Origin: Methanomicrobia archaeon
GTDB lineage: Archaea; Methanobacteriota_B; Thermococci; Methanofastidiosales; NM3
Assembly (NCBI GenBank): GCA_030603445.1
Contig: JAUVXU010000010.1
Location: 1-64,000, forward strand
Length of the DNA stretch: 64,000 bases
Direction: 5' to 3'
Position numbers and translations under genes: made by a program. Positions 28,477 to 43,175 of the stretch are shown one piece after another. Under the pieces are notes generated by a model. That model was not told the origin of the DNA. It made no database searches and saw nothing but the letters and a program-made list of their open reading frames with translations. Each line of letters starts with the position of its first letter. Position 1 is the first letter of the stretch.

Positions 28477-28552
28477 AGCCGGGTAGGGTAGGGGACAATC
28501 CTGCAGGACTCTGGATCCCGCGACCGCGGTTCGAATCCGCGCCCGGCTACCA
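28477..28552 (+). tRNA. tRNA-Gln (anticodon CTG), encoded 3' CCA
   Basis: AGCCGGG/CCCGGCT acceptor, D-arm GGGT..ATCC, loop CTCTGGA (CTG at 28511-28513), T-arm CGCGG TTCGAAT CCGCG, discriminator A549. Confidence 0.93.
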
Positions 28553-38431: not shown

Positions 38432-38567
38432 ATTTAAATATTGCTTAAATATCTTGCTCTGTCCAGGCCGGTTTTGTACATTAAATTAATTCTATATATA
38501 ATATAACTATACTTGCACAAATAGGTTATCAGAAATAATATCAACAATTCCATTATTGTTGAATAAT

Positions 38568-39830
38568 TTAAAAATCTAGAATAGTTTGTTTATGTGGTGT
38601 AGGAGAAATAATGTTATCAAACAACTCTGTATTTTTATTTATTGCATCTTTACTATTAATGTATTTTTTCAATGTTCCTTTTTCAAGTGCATATTTTTTT
38701 GTATTTTCAATTTCTTGTGATAATAACATGCCATTTTGTAGCTTATAGAATTCATTATTATTTAAAAGATTATTTTTATAATTTTCATCTATTTTTCTAG
38801 GATAATAATCAACTTTATAATAATAATATGAATTCGGGTCAAATAACCTATGTTTATGTAATCTATTAATAAAATTAAACTCTTCTACACTTTTAAAACC
38901 TTTTTTGATAATTCTTTCTTCTAACTTATTATCTTTATTAAACATACGAAATGGTTCTCTATTTATTCCAACAAAATCAGCACAGAAAAACTGAGATAAA
39001 ATATCAGAAGCACTAGCTCTATTTTCGAATATATTTGAATCTACCTCTCTCTTGATATGTGAGTAGTACAAAGTAACATTATCTAAGCCAATAATATCTT
39101 CAATTAATCTTATTAATGTGCGGATGTATGTAAAATAAGTTCCTCCAATCTGGGTGGCACATAAATTAATCCAGAGATTATTAATATTTTTTTCTTTGTA
39201 GAAATTAAGAATATTGGATAATTTTTTTCGAGATAATCTAGGTTGAATTGGTGCAAATATAGGTTTATTATTTTTATCAGAAAGATATGTTATGCAGTTA
39301 TATACAAAATTTAAATATTCATCTATATCTATAGTATCTTTTCCACCTCTTAAAACAATATCTGGAGAAAGTACTATTAATTTTGATGAAGAATGAAGAT
39401 AATCTAATAAGCTATAGATATTGTCATAATTCATTGGTTTTATACATAAATCATCTCGAAAAGGATTTTTTGAAAAGACAAAGGATATGGTATTAGGGTA
39501 TTTTTTCCATAGATTTGAATTAATACCAACCATTTTATTTAATCCTGGTACTTTTTCTCTATCGGCTTCCTCAAGTAAAAAATATAATTTTTTCCAGCTT
39601 CTCGGATGTGCAATATATGCATAATGCTCAAATATAGGGGAAAGATTACTATTGAAACTTGGCAAATTATTTATATTAACATTTTTTCCTTCCAATATTT
39701 TAAAAGGAGTACTTAATTTTAATTTTGGATGTTCAATCTCAATATCTCTTATATGATAATAATCACTATCTTTTATTTGTATAATTCCATCAATATTGAT
39801 ATGAGTATCAAATTCATCCATTATAATCAC
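38568..39830 (-). CDS. Uncharacterised protein; TIM-barrel-like, possibly distantly TGT-like
   Basis: Alternating beta/alpha pattern KLIVLSPDIVL..PIFAPIQ..NLWINLCATQIGG..VTLYYSHIKRE..ADFVGINREP; third gene of coupled operon. Confidence 0.4.
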   Translation of the reverse strand: MIIMDEFDTHINIDGIIQIKDSDYYHIRDIEIEHPKLKLSTPFKILEGKNVNINNLPSFNSNLSPIFEHYAYIAHPRSWKKLYFLLEEADREKVPGLNKMVGINSNLWKKYPNTISFVFSKNPFRDDLCIKPMNYDNIYSLLDYLHSSSKLIVLSPDIVLRGGKDTIDIDEYLNFVYNCITYLSDKNNKPIFAPIQPRLSRKKLSNILNFYKEKNINNLWINLCATQIGGTYFTYIRTLIRLIEDIIGLDNVTLYYSHIKREVDSNIFENRASASDILSQFFCADFVGINREPFRMFNKDNKLEERIIKKGFKSVEEFNFINRLHKHRLFDPNSYYYYKVDYYPRKIDENYKNNLLNNNEFYKLQNGMLLSQEIENTKKYALEKGTLKKYINSKDAINKNTELFDNIISPTPHKQTILDF

Positions 39831-40410
39831 TTTTTAATTTTGACAATAGGGGAAGCAATATCTTACCATAATCCTTGGTACACATACTACAAGGACGATG
39901 ATTTATATTAAGTTTATCGGCATTTTCGATAGCAGCTTTCATGTTTTCCATTACATTTATTGCACTATTTTTACTTATATACCCATCATGTTCACATGCT
40001 TTAAAAATAAATCCTGGCGTGCCGGTAAGATAAGGTTTTAATTCTTGAAAATAATTATTTATAAACTTTCTTCCATGTTTATCTTCCATAATTATATACT
40101 TAAACTTCTTATCATTCAGTACATATATAAAATAATGAGCAATCCCTATAGCCTCATATTCTCCATCATCATGATGCTTTTTTTCTCTATTCAATAAAGG
40201 TTCAAATATTTTTTTATAATCTTGTTCAATAGTTGTTAAAGAAGAAATAATTTTATTATTTTCTGATACTTTAGCAGGTAGCTCTTTTATTAAATTATTG
40301 CCTATGAAAAAATTGTACATATCTAATAATTTCTTTAAAGTATTTATTTCACCAATATCATCACATAAACAACAATAAAAACTATTATCAGCAACGACTT
40401 TATATTTCAT
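39814..40410 (-). CDS. PIN-like domain protein with extra Cys residues
   Basis: YKVVADNSFY (first Asp), HHDDGEYEAIGIAHYF (GExEAI-type PIN motif), KYIIMEDKHGRKFI (Asp); overlaps both neighbours. Confidence 0.6.
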   Translation of the reverse strand: MKYKVVADNSFYCCLCDDIGEINTLKKLLDMYNFFIGNNLIKELPAKVSENNKIISSLTTIEQDYKKIFEPLLNREKKHHDDGEYEAIGIAHYFIYVLNDKKFKYIIMEDKHGRKFINNYFQELKPYLTGTPGFIFKACEHDGYISKNSAINVMENMKAAIENADKLNINHRPCSMCTKDYGKILLPLLSKLKSDYNG

Positions 40411-40985
40411 ATCAATCTCTCTTCTAGGAGTTCTTTATATTTCTTTGAATCAATGATATTCTTTACTAGAAGTTGCTTAGCTATATATTCTTTATTTTTT
40501 TCTATCCTCTCTTTCCAATATGAATTTTGAGTATATTTAGGATATGAACGATATATCAATAATAGCAATTCTTCCATACTTACATTGTCATATATTTTTC
40601 TAATTAATTTAACACCATTCAATAAATGAGATAAAGGAATACTATTTTTTTGTTTTATTTTTTTTACTAATTCCAAATATTCATTTTTTCCTTTATTATT
40701 GAGATAAATATATCCTCCACTTAATTCGTCATTGGAGTATTCATACACCCAACAATCTTCTAGAAATATTGGATTTATTATGGCTTCTTTTACATCTTGA
40801 GAAAAGGGACCTTTATAATGTTTAATAAAGTATACAAATTCTTTAATAGAAGGATGAAAATTCCATAATAGAAATATTTCTTTTTGTAAATGTAATTGGC
40901 TTATTTTTTTATTATCGGCACCAAGTACCAATAAAATTAAGTTTTCCAGTGATTTTCTCTTTCCTTCTGATTCATCTATACTCAT
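40407..40985 (-). CDS. Panacea/SocA-like (DUF4065-like) protein
   Basis: ISQLHLQKEIFLLWNF....YKGPFSQDVKEAI resembles the Panacea (I..LKLQKLLYF...YGPV) signature. Confidence 0.5.
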   Translation of the reverse strand: MSIDESEGKRKSLENLILLVLGADNKKISQLHLQKEIFLLWNFHPSIKEFVYFIKHYKGPFSQDVKEAIINPIFLEDCWVYEYSNDELSGGYIYLNNKGKNEYLELVKKIKQKNSIPLSHLLNGVKLIRKIYDNVSMEELLLLIYRSYPKYTQNSYWKERIEKNKEYIAKQLLVKNIIDSKKYKELLEERLI

Positions 40986-41040
40986 ACGATCAACTATTTT
41001 TTCATGATTTTATAAATTGATTATGTGTTTCTCTCTTGAA

Positions 41041-41280
41041 TTATTTTTCTTTATATTTTTCTATAATCTTGAAATATCTTCTAAATGTTTTTATATTAAT
41101 AGTCCAATCATATATAATTCTATTATTTCTATCTCTTTTTTTAGTTTTTATCTTGGATACTAAATTCATTTTTTCTAATTTATTTAAGACTTTTTGTATA
41201 TTATTTAGGCTATGTACAGTAACTTTGTATAATTCCAATCCTGGCATATGTCTATCATTATAATACACAGCACTAACCAC
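41041..41280 (-). CDS. Small winged-HTH-like protein
   Basis: HSLNNIQKVLNKLEKMNLVSKIKTKKRDRNNRIIYDW recognition helix/wing pattern. Confidence 0.5.
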   Translation of the reverse strand: MVSAVYYNDRHMPGLELYKVTVHSLNNIQKVLNKLEKMNLVSKIKTKKRDRNNRIIYDWTINIKTFRRYFKIIEKYKEK

Positions 41281-41312
41281 ATTGATGCCATATTACCCGA
41301 AACATGTTTATT

Positions 41313-41555
41313 CATCTCTAATTAACTCCGCCTTTAGTGAATGATTATCATCATTCTTTGATATATCAAAGGGATTATAAATGAATTTGAAAACATTTTT
41401 CTGCATTTGTCATCGAACTTTTTGCTATGTTACTGGGCATTCGGATAGAATACTGTTTTCCATCGTAAAATATTTTTGCATTATGGATAATTGGTTCATT
41501 TCTATCCTTTTTTAATATATCATAAAGTTCTTTAGCAATTTTCAATATGTTTTTT
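41313..41555 (-). pseudogene. Frameshifted AbrB-like/antitoxin-like ORF
   Basis: NILKIAKELYDILKKDRNEPIIHNAKIFYDGKQYSIRMPSNIAKSSMTNAEK then shifted frame KNVFKFIYNPFDISKNDDNHSLKAELIRDE*. Confidence 0.45.
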
Positions 41556-41699
41556 TAGTCCGAAATAAAAACAGTGATTGAAACGAGCAAAGATGAAATT
41601 TTAGTAAAAGAAGTTAAAATATCTAAAATTTACAAAAAAATTCATTGCACCTATCCACCCGATTGGAATATAGAATGTGAAGATAATGAAGGGAATAAA

Positions 41700-42000
41700 A
41701 AAGAAAAATAAATCGAAAAAAGAATATATCAATATAAATTTAGATAATTTCTCATTATTCAAAGACAATAATAGAAATCCAAAAACATATCCTCAGAATT
41801 GGTCTAAGTATAATATAGGATAGACCATTGGCAAGGTGAATGCCTCAGATTTTCTGTTTGATATCCTTTACACTATTCCATTAATGAGGAAAAAAGGCAA
41901 ATGAAGGCCAAAATTTAATATCAAGGAGATTATCATAACTCCCCATTTTATGCAGAAAACAAGTAAGAGTAGTAGAGGCATATATTTCTTGATTTTATAA
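41700..42000 (+). mobile_element. Degenerate transposase N-terminus
   Basis: NPKTYPQNWSKYNIG* ... LFDILYTIP ... GK*RPKFNIKEIIITPHFMQKTSKSSRGIYFLIL, resembling YPxNWxxYNxAQ...GRPxxxxxDxI...YxxxSSRR of archaeal DDE transposases, with stops and frameshifts. Confidence 0.45.
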
Positions 42001-42190
42001 GATCAAAGAGACATATCTCAAAGATACCTCACTTTAATATCCTATTGAAATATTTGAGCGACACAAACTTAACACTTATATTGCACCATATAATTGAACT
42101 TAGTGCCATGCCATTAGCTATCTTTAACAATTGTGCAACACAGCACACAGACCCTTATGCTTATATATCTTTATAGGGATTTTTGGTATA

Positions 42191-42643
42191 ATGGAGCTAA
42201 CTATCACAGCAAGGGGTCATGATAACATAAGGGCCGCACACAAGACGACCATTGAAATTACCAAAGACCCCGATGTCACTTTGAATGGAGACTGCATAGT
42301 TGCAGTTGGTGCGGATATTGGATTTTGCGACATGCCTGGCGCATTTAAGGAAATGATTAGGGGATCTAAAGTAAGAGTGACATTTTCCTGCGCCGGGCGT
42401 GAGTGGAGCGTGGATGGTGAAGGGACCAAAAAATTGGCCATGCTGCATAAGCAGGAGATGGTTATAAGAAAAAGCTCCTTTGAATGCGCACGCACGCTTA
42501 TGATAAATGCCGACAAGGCTTCCTGTGATATGCCGGATGACATAGTTTCTAGCATGCAGGACCCCAAAAACATGATAAATATTACCTTATCTATCATAGG
42601 TCCACGAAGTAACAAACATCCTCATCAAAATAACCACATCTAA
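42191..42643 (+). CDS. DUF371 family protein
   Basis: ITARGHDNIRAAHKTTIEITKDPDVTLNGDCIVAVGAD. Confidence 0.88.
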   Translation: MELTITARGHDNIRAAHKTTIEITKDPDVTLNGDCIVAVGADIGFCDMPGAFKEMIRGSKVRVTFSCAGREWSVDGEGTKKLAMLHKQEMVIRKSSFECARTLMINADKASCDMPDDIVSSMQDPKNMINITLSIIGPRSNKHPHQNNHI

Positions 42644-43175
42644 AATCATCCTTCGCAAGGCCCAGGCGCTTGGAAAGCATGTACATGTACCAATACACCT
42701 GCGTTGATGCATAACGCTCTTTTTCTGCATTAGGCTTGTAGTCCCATACCTCTATCTTGTCAGTTAGCCTAAGCACATCTATATGCCCTGTTAGGGGTGA
42801 TGAGAATCCTGCATTTATGGTCTCGTCCTCTTCTAGCCATACAGGTACCTCAACAGCAACTGTTGCACGGTCGTTTTCAAGGAGAAACATCTCGACCCTG
42901 CTGTGATTTGATGAATAGCGCTCCTGGTACAGCTTCTTTCCACAGGCCGTGAACTTTGATATGGGGTGGCGGACGCGATTGACATAGTACCTGGGCGCCT
43001 TTAGTTTGGACGCGCGCGGTTCCTGACAGAAGTGTTCATGAGGGCATGCGTCAATGGATGAGAAGTATGAGAGAAGATTGTTTGAATATTGTTCCATGGG
43101 GTGGTCTGTTAGTTTGTCCTTCTCATATCGAAACCAGTAGTACCACCCATGATGAAAGCTTTTTGAGATTATCAT
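42594..43175 (-). CDS. PD-(D/E)XK nuclease-like protein
   Basis: GHIDVLRLTDKIEVWDYKP catalytic core, downstream Q/Y motif STQVYWYMYML. Confidence 0.7.
   Translation of the reverse strand: MIISKSFHHGWYYWFRYEKDKLTDHPMEQYSNNLLSYFSSIDACPHEHFCQEPRASKLKAPRYYVNRVRHPISKFTACGKKLYQERYSSNHSRVEMFLLENDRATVAVEVPVWLEEDETINAGFSSPLTGHIDVLRLTDKIEVWDYKPNAEKERYASTQVYWYMYMLSKRLGLAKDDFRCGYFDEDVCYFVDL

Follow-up and report, generated by a model that had tools for sequence, protein, structure and literature searches.

What kind of system is encoded by three overlapping genes that lie in a stretch of DNA far richer in AT than its flanks? The question is raised by genes A, B and C of the window, the whole 64,000-nt stretch of DNA analysed here, for which a preliminary description had proposed an RNA-targeting toxin-antitoxin or defence module composed of a Panacea-like, a PIN-like and a TIM-barrel-like protein. 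Collectively, the features of the three proteins and of their relatives point to a little-known toxin-antitoxin or antiviral module.

Organization of the locus

The three minus-strand open reading frames were confirmed in strand and position (Table 1), and they are taken as real genes because each of the three has protein homologues, at ~20-50% identity, in dozens of genomes. Genes A and B overlap by 4 nt at an ATGA (40407-40410), as had been described. The 17-nt overlap originally given for B and C holds if C starts at the GTG at 39830, and shortens to 8 nt with the ATG at 39821. The N termini of C homologues read MSEFDPHI, MSEYDPHL or MPDFDSHI, and since the homologues favour this position, C probably starts at the ATG (417 aa).

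The AT-rich stretch noted around the trio was also borne out, and it extends past the three genes to ~42.13 kb as an island of 3.7 kb (38432-42130) with a GC content of 0.254, compared with 0.427 in the rest of the window. The GC content of the trio itself (0.249) is lower than that of every 2.4-kb window outside the island and lies ~7 s.d. below their mean (mean 0.424, s.d. 0.024, minimum 0.356). Core genes border the island: at one end the gene for a CPxCG zinc-finger protein, at the other a DUF371 gene. Upstream of A, TTTATAAAA is read as a TATA-like element on the basis of archaeal promoter spacing, and its distance from the start codon (~27 nt) would be consistent with a leaderless archaeal transcript. 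The 79-aa open reading frame further upstream, which matched no family at E <= 0.001, is possibly a regulator or a remnant.

Several other features of the region were observed. Within the island, on the minus strand at 41400-41550, the reading frame NAKIFYDGKQYSIRMPSNIAKS resembles what is left of a swapped-hairpin protein of the AbrB type; the trio also has AbrB-like neighbours in loci L017 (7813-8187) and L069 (3757-3945). Beside the island, a 193-aa protein encoded on the minus strand at 42594-43175 matched the Cas4/DUF83 type weakly (E 0.011). Rfam yielded a single match at the gathering threshold for the window, a tRNA gene on the plus strand at 28477-28549.

Table 1. Coordinates of the trio and of associated features in the window
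Feature	Coordinates	Strand	Description
Gene A	40407..40985	minus	192 aa, predicted antitoxin; DarG C-terminal-domain-like core, GPFS motif, short tail
Gene B	39814..40410	minus	198 aa, PIN-domain nuclease (DUF3368-like, PADLOC PDC-S70), predicted RNase toxin
Gene C	38568..39830	minus	420 aa from GTG; predicted TGT-fold protein, apparently without TGT nucleophile and zinc-site cysteines
TATA-like element	41008..41016	minus	~27 nt upstream of A start codon; sequence TTTATAAAA
79-aa ORF	41041..41280	minus	Weak winged-helix matches (Lrs14/TrmB/SarA-like); outside conserved trio
AT-rich island	38432..42130	no strand	25% GC, between core genes

Protein A resembles the toxin-binding domain of DarG

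No Pfam family and no macrodomain was matched by A of the window. It did match the PADLOC PDC-M19A profile (3e-7), and the PADLOC DarG profile was matched by 18 of 19 A homologues (best 6.8e-9). When the predicted model of A (pLDDT 92.5) was searched against the PDB with Foldseek, the only protein matched significantly was DarG, in the M. tuberculosis DarTG complex 7yk3 (E 4.8e-4 with TM 0.54 for one chain, E 1.1e-3 for the second), the next protein having an E value of 0.25. In a comparison of the A sequence profile with the PDB, 7yk3_B was among five sub-threshold matches. A resembles, then, a domain solved in complex with its toxin; in the account of Deep et al. 2023 cited in PMC12170906, the C-terminal domain of DarG blocks DarT by ssDNA mimicry.

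Divergent relatives of A carry in addition a UPF0175 tail, detected over the curated cut-off in L034, L077 and L078 (6.4e-11, 3.5e-8 and 9.4e-8), while A of the window gave no UPF0175 match. A had been described as a member of the Panacea/SocA group (PF13274). Membership was rejected, as there was no Pfam or profile match and hhalign against a Panacea protein gave P = 0.73, and the description was right only indirectly, the relative being the toxin-binding domain of DarG. A does contain an invariant GP.S motif, mostly GPFS or GPYS, which recalls the GPV motif typical of Panacea (PMC8832971).

Protein B is a predicted PIN nuclease

The acidic residues D8, E43, E84 and E86 of B are invariant among 20 homologues, and D109 is nearly so, the pattern expected of a PIN nuclease. 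PADLOC PDC-S70 profiles, which describe a mostly archaeal PIN nuclease (PMC12988326), matched 14 of 20 B proteins, including that of the window (2e-6). Divergent B orthologues matched DUF3368, one of them (L074) over the cut-off; B of the window had no direct Pfam PIN match. These data uphold the earlier assignment of B to the PIN group. The unusual cysteine pairs to which attention had been drawn, YCCLC and PCSMC, are present in B of the window and are not conserved among homologues. B is predicted to be an RNase toxin. Pairing of a UPF0175 (COG2886) antitoxin with a PIN toxin is known (PMC2701414), and A and B together represent a variant within an established kind of toxin-antitoxin pair.

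The three genes are linked across archaea

The possibility that homologues of the three proteins never co-occur was refuted. All three genes were found in 48 loci, a set that includes a few loci from very similar species; 38 are arranged A>B>C and in 10 C is divergent from A>B. Since these loci were mostly found by searches with one gene, the figure describes linkage given one gene and is not an unbiased census. Among 150 related genomes, C was found in 7, and in all 7 the genes followed the order A, B, C. A contig scan with B alone yielded 16 loci, 15 of them A>B>C; the remaining locus is cut at the contig start, with C split between two frames. Pairwise tree distances of A, B and C were correlated (Mantel r 0.88-0.89; permutation maximum 0.22, n=500). 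From the linkage and the correlated distances we conclude that the three genes move and evolve together, and that they stayed linked through a rearrangement makes a chance operon less likely.

The trio was found in Methanoperedens, Methanomicrobiales, Methanoregula, Methanocorpusculum, Nanoarchaeota, Pacearchaeota, Thermococcus, Pyrohabitans, Archaeoglobales, Geoglobus and Nitrososphaeraceae (Thermoproteota also being named), and in one Thermodesulfovibrio. Surveys by phylum recovered it in 15/394 genomes for the phylum of the Methanoperedens locus, 16/379 for that of the Nitrososphaeraceae locus, 5/351 (one a false positive) for that of the Nanoarchaeota locus and 1/246 for that of the Thermodesulfovibrio locus (Nitrospirota). 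Three fragments of C (L070, L073 and L097) were left out of the counts, and L104 was judged by eye to be a dihydroorotate dehydrogenase-like false positive. The only bacterial trio (L023) lies on a 6.9-kb contig of a Thermodesulfovibrio MAG; it is close to the archaeal Pyrohabitans copy L020 and has a coverage of 2, so it is likely a mis-binned archaeal contig. A bacterial origin of the trio was rejected on these grounds, with a single Nitrospirota genome of 246 and a likely binning error. A direct search of phages and plasmids with C of the window returned no close relatives.

This patchy distribution, in the first three of the phyla surveyed, is what might be seen if A and B formed an ordinary selfish toxin-antitoxin pair and C were an accessory with no general role in toxicity or defence, as is often the case for third genes of Panacea loci (PMC8832971). 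However, C is present in nearly every locus that has this A/B pair, in both arrangements and across archaeal phyla, and we regard a merely accessory C as rather unlikely.

Protein C is predicted to have the fold of a tRNA-guanine transglycosylase

C of the window did not significantly match any family of Pfam, NCBIfam, PHROGs or PADLOC, its homologues had no consistent match in Pfam or PADLOC, and the Pfam TGT family PF01702 was matched by 0/20 C members. The predicted model of C (pLDDT 88.1, pTM 0.90) gave a different result, with TGTs holding ranks 1-21 in a search of the PDB. The best match was archaeosine TGT from Pyrococcus horikoshii (E 1.1e-6, TM 0.53); the similarity is moderate, the full-length rmsd being close to 7 A. 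A viral structure library returned only weak TIM-barrel matches to the model, a few queuine tRNA-ribosyltransferases among them. Comparison of sequence profiles revealed weak in-register matches between C and TGTs at the N terminus (KD...I...I...ETP) and in the C-terminal helix, and global hhalign gave no useful alignment. When 132 single proteins, including 19 TGTs, were ranked against the C profile, TGTs took the top 7 places, and others among them came far down the list; as members of one family, the seven do not amount to seven independent results. A TGT-type TIM barrel fold in C, which had earlier been offered as a guess, is supported by the model and by this ranking.

The CADFVG motif of C aligns with GCDLFD of the archaeosine TGT, which places the invariant Gly288 at the nucleophilic Asp of the FD(S/C) motif; since the alignment score is low, this position of Gly288 is probable and not certain. 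There were no conserved cysteines in the C alignments that would form the TGT zinc site CxCxxC...H. In the alignment, C has apparently lost the catalytic aspartate of TGTs, and we infer that it does not carry out TGT chemistry. With an invariant Gly aligned with the nucleophile and the zinc cysteines absent, an active TGT is disfavoured, and C probably does not modify tRNA. Of the RNA-targeting module first envisaged, the assignment to toxin-antitoxin or defence systems appears sound on genomic grounds, and the tRNA-modifying activity considered for C does not.

C remains with A when the toxin gene changes

In locus L107 (4318-5266, 5300-6373), A and C are kept and the toxin slot is occupied by a ParE/RelE-family toxin (PF05016, 3.8e-10). 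A and C also occur without the PIN gene in L125 and L131. In L124, A has an added zinc-ribbon-like N terminus, and the small protein beside it is, judged by eye, possibly another toxin. The case for toxin exchange is clear at one locus, L107, and weaker at three others. Because C is linked to A without PIN in L107, L125 and L131, C appears to follow A and not the nuclease.

These loci bear on the possibility that C is an RNA-binding guide, its TGT fold reading the tRNA anticodon stem and positioning the PIN protein to cut tRNA, with A as inhibitor. VapC-type PIN toxins commonly cleave tRNA (e.g. VapC52), and C seems to have retained the TGT fold while losing the nucleophile. We nonetheless consider a guide unlikely, because C stays with A where a ParE-type toxin takes the place of the PIN protein (L107) and where the PIN gene is missing (L125, L131).

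C and A can also be found apart. On a Haloarcula sp. JP-L23 plasmid (L142; CP050016.1, 8986-10200), a C homologue annotated as a hypothetical protein adjoins a large methylase-like gene, and neither A nor B was detectable at this locus. Conversely, L127-L130 encode A-like proteins without C. In two of them, L127 and L129 (Halobacteriota), an A-like protein of ~150 aa lies beside a gene of ~250 aa with a TrmB-like look; these loci possibly represent another use of the A domain.

Conserved residues of C

Across 21 divergent C sequences, P42, P156, N187, D276, G288, Y335, Y337 and E373 are invariant. That several polar residues are invariant or nearly so could indicate that C is an active enzyme which modifies RNA or DNA through a new active site (E68, N187, K189, D276, D331, Y335, Y337), the A/B pair serving as an addiction module that stabilises it. 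The candidate residues, however, do not map to known TGT catalytic positions, and we find an enzyme of this kind distinctly unlikely.

The trio is found beside defence genes

In several loci the trio lies among defence genes, an association that is not an enrichment figure. It is situated inside a type I restriction-modification locus in L015 and between NOV_C helicase and DUF1156 methylase genes in L078; it adjoins an Eco57I-type methylase in L019 and a NOV_C helicase in L023. DUF1156-like neighbours were recognised by eye in L119, L121 and L122. Across L078, L119, L121 and L122 the trio repeatedly adjoins DUF1156-type methylase genes, some with a large helicase gene on the far flank, and this neighbourhood of BREX-related systems is a recurrent association of the trio in archaea. 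BREX and related systems are reported to use PIN RNases as backup effectors, and DUF1156 methylases are counted among the relatives of these systems (PMC12839542). A virus contig carries one copy of the trio (L060), close to a terminase gene.

A modification-dependent restriction or sensing system, in which C would sense 7-deazaguanine-modified invader DNA or the free deazaguanine base and A/B would be the effector, is improbable, since the TGT catalytic residues are not conserved in C, even though Dpd systems use enzymes of the TGT family to place deazaguanines in DNA (PMC12839542) and trio loci lie beside restriction and DUF1156 systems.

A proposed three-component module

A toxin-antitoxin or defence module is well supported by the genomic evidence. 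We propose, with moderate confidence, that the trio is a three-component module of the toxin-antitoxin type, probably acting in antiviral abortive infection, with A as the antitoxin, B as the PIN toxin and C as a control partner. B would be an RNA-cleaving toxin, held inactive by A through a constant core like the DarG C-terminal domain and a variable tail. C would be the constant third partner, built on the TGT fold, that may bind A or a nucleic-acid ligand and would control release of the toxin through A, by analogy with CmdC of CmdTAC. In that system, a capsid protein draws the chaperone CmdC off, and breakdown of the antitoxin and release of the toxin follow (PMC11618068). The proposal would entail toxicity of B and its neutralisation by A, contact between A and C, control or sensing by C, and an antiviral role for the whole.

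The three-component module is favoured by the linkage of the genes, the DarG likeness of A, the UPF0175-DUF3368 relatives, the toxin exchange in L107 and the defence context. Counting against it are the locus with C alone (L142), the A-like proteins without C (L127-L130), the dependence of toxin exchange on one clear locus and the low score of the alignment that indicates loss of the nucleophile. More tentatively, the trio could exemplify a hitherto undescribed tripartite class of antiviral toxin-antitoxin systems, mainly archaeal, in which a catalytically retired TGT would serve as infection sensor and a DarG-like protein as adaptor antitoxin for RNA-targeting toxins that can be interchanged, among them PIN and ParE/RelE proteins.

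Little is known of immunity in archaea, and PDC-S70, among its main candidate defences, is treated as a single gene (PMC12988326). Our data suggest that one branch of PDC-S70 is the toxin component in a unit of three genes, the third of which is missing from all four family libraries searched. A fixed association of a toxin-antitoxin pair with an apparently dead TGT-fold protein was not found in the literature searched, which was an incomplete selection excluding preprints. If C is indeed a sensor derived from a dead tRNA-modifying enzyme, it would represent a new link of virus detection to toxin release.

Relation to known systems

The trio brings together three subjects so far treated separately: toxin binding of the DarG type, the pairing of UPF0175 with PIN proteins, and the TGT fold. 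Its resemblance to MADS is slight: B of the window has a weak partial mad4 match (E 0.0017) over 70 residues, found in 1/20 homologues, and other MADS genes were not seen; a relation to MADS was rejected. With Panacea/SocA (DUF4065), A shares a helical, antitoxin-like character, a conserved GP motif and exchangeable toxin partners, but it has neither a PF13274 match nor profile similarity to a Panacea protein. The relationship to DarTG is closer, A having the fold of the DarG chain of the complex and 18/19 homologues matching the DarG profile; unlike DarG, A of the window has no macrodomain, and its partner is a PIN nuclease in place of the DarT ADP-ribosyltransferase.

Divergent trio members share with UPF0175 (COG2886)-DUF3368/PIN pairs the UPF0175 tail on A, a DUF3368 B and the antitoxin-first order. 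They differ in the extra DarG-like domain of A and in the TGT-fold third gene, which is nearly always there, and A and B of the window fall below the family cut-offs. B likewise corresponds in 14/20 proteins to PDC-S70, the archaea-enriched candidate PIN nuclease of PADLOC; that system is listed as a single gene, whereas B is almost always linked to A and to C, the latter absent from PADLOC. C is akin to TGTs, including DpdA of Dpd systems, in its predicted fold and in the in-register profile matches at both termini, and departs from them in the invariant Gly aligned with the nucleophilic Asp, the missing zinc cysteines and the lack of a Pfam TGT match. The likeness to TAC and CmdTAC is one of analogy and not of membership, as C is a predicted TGT-fold barrel and not a SecB-like chaperone, but in both the third protein stays with the antitoxin while the toxin can vary, and an analogous control logic is plausible (PMC11618068).
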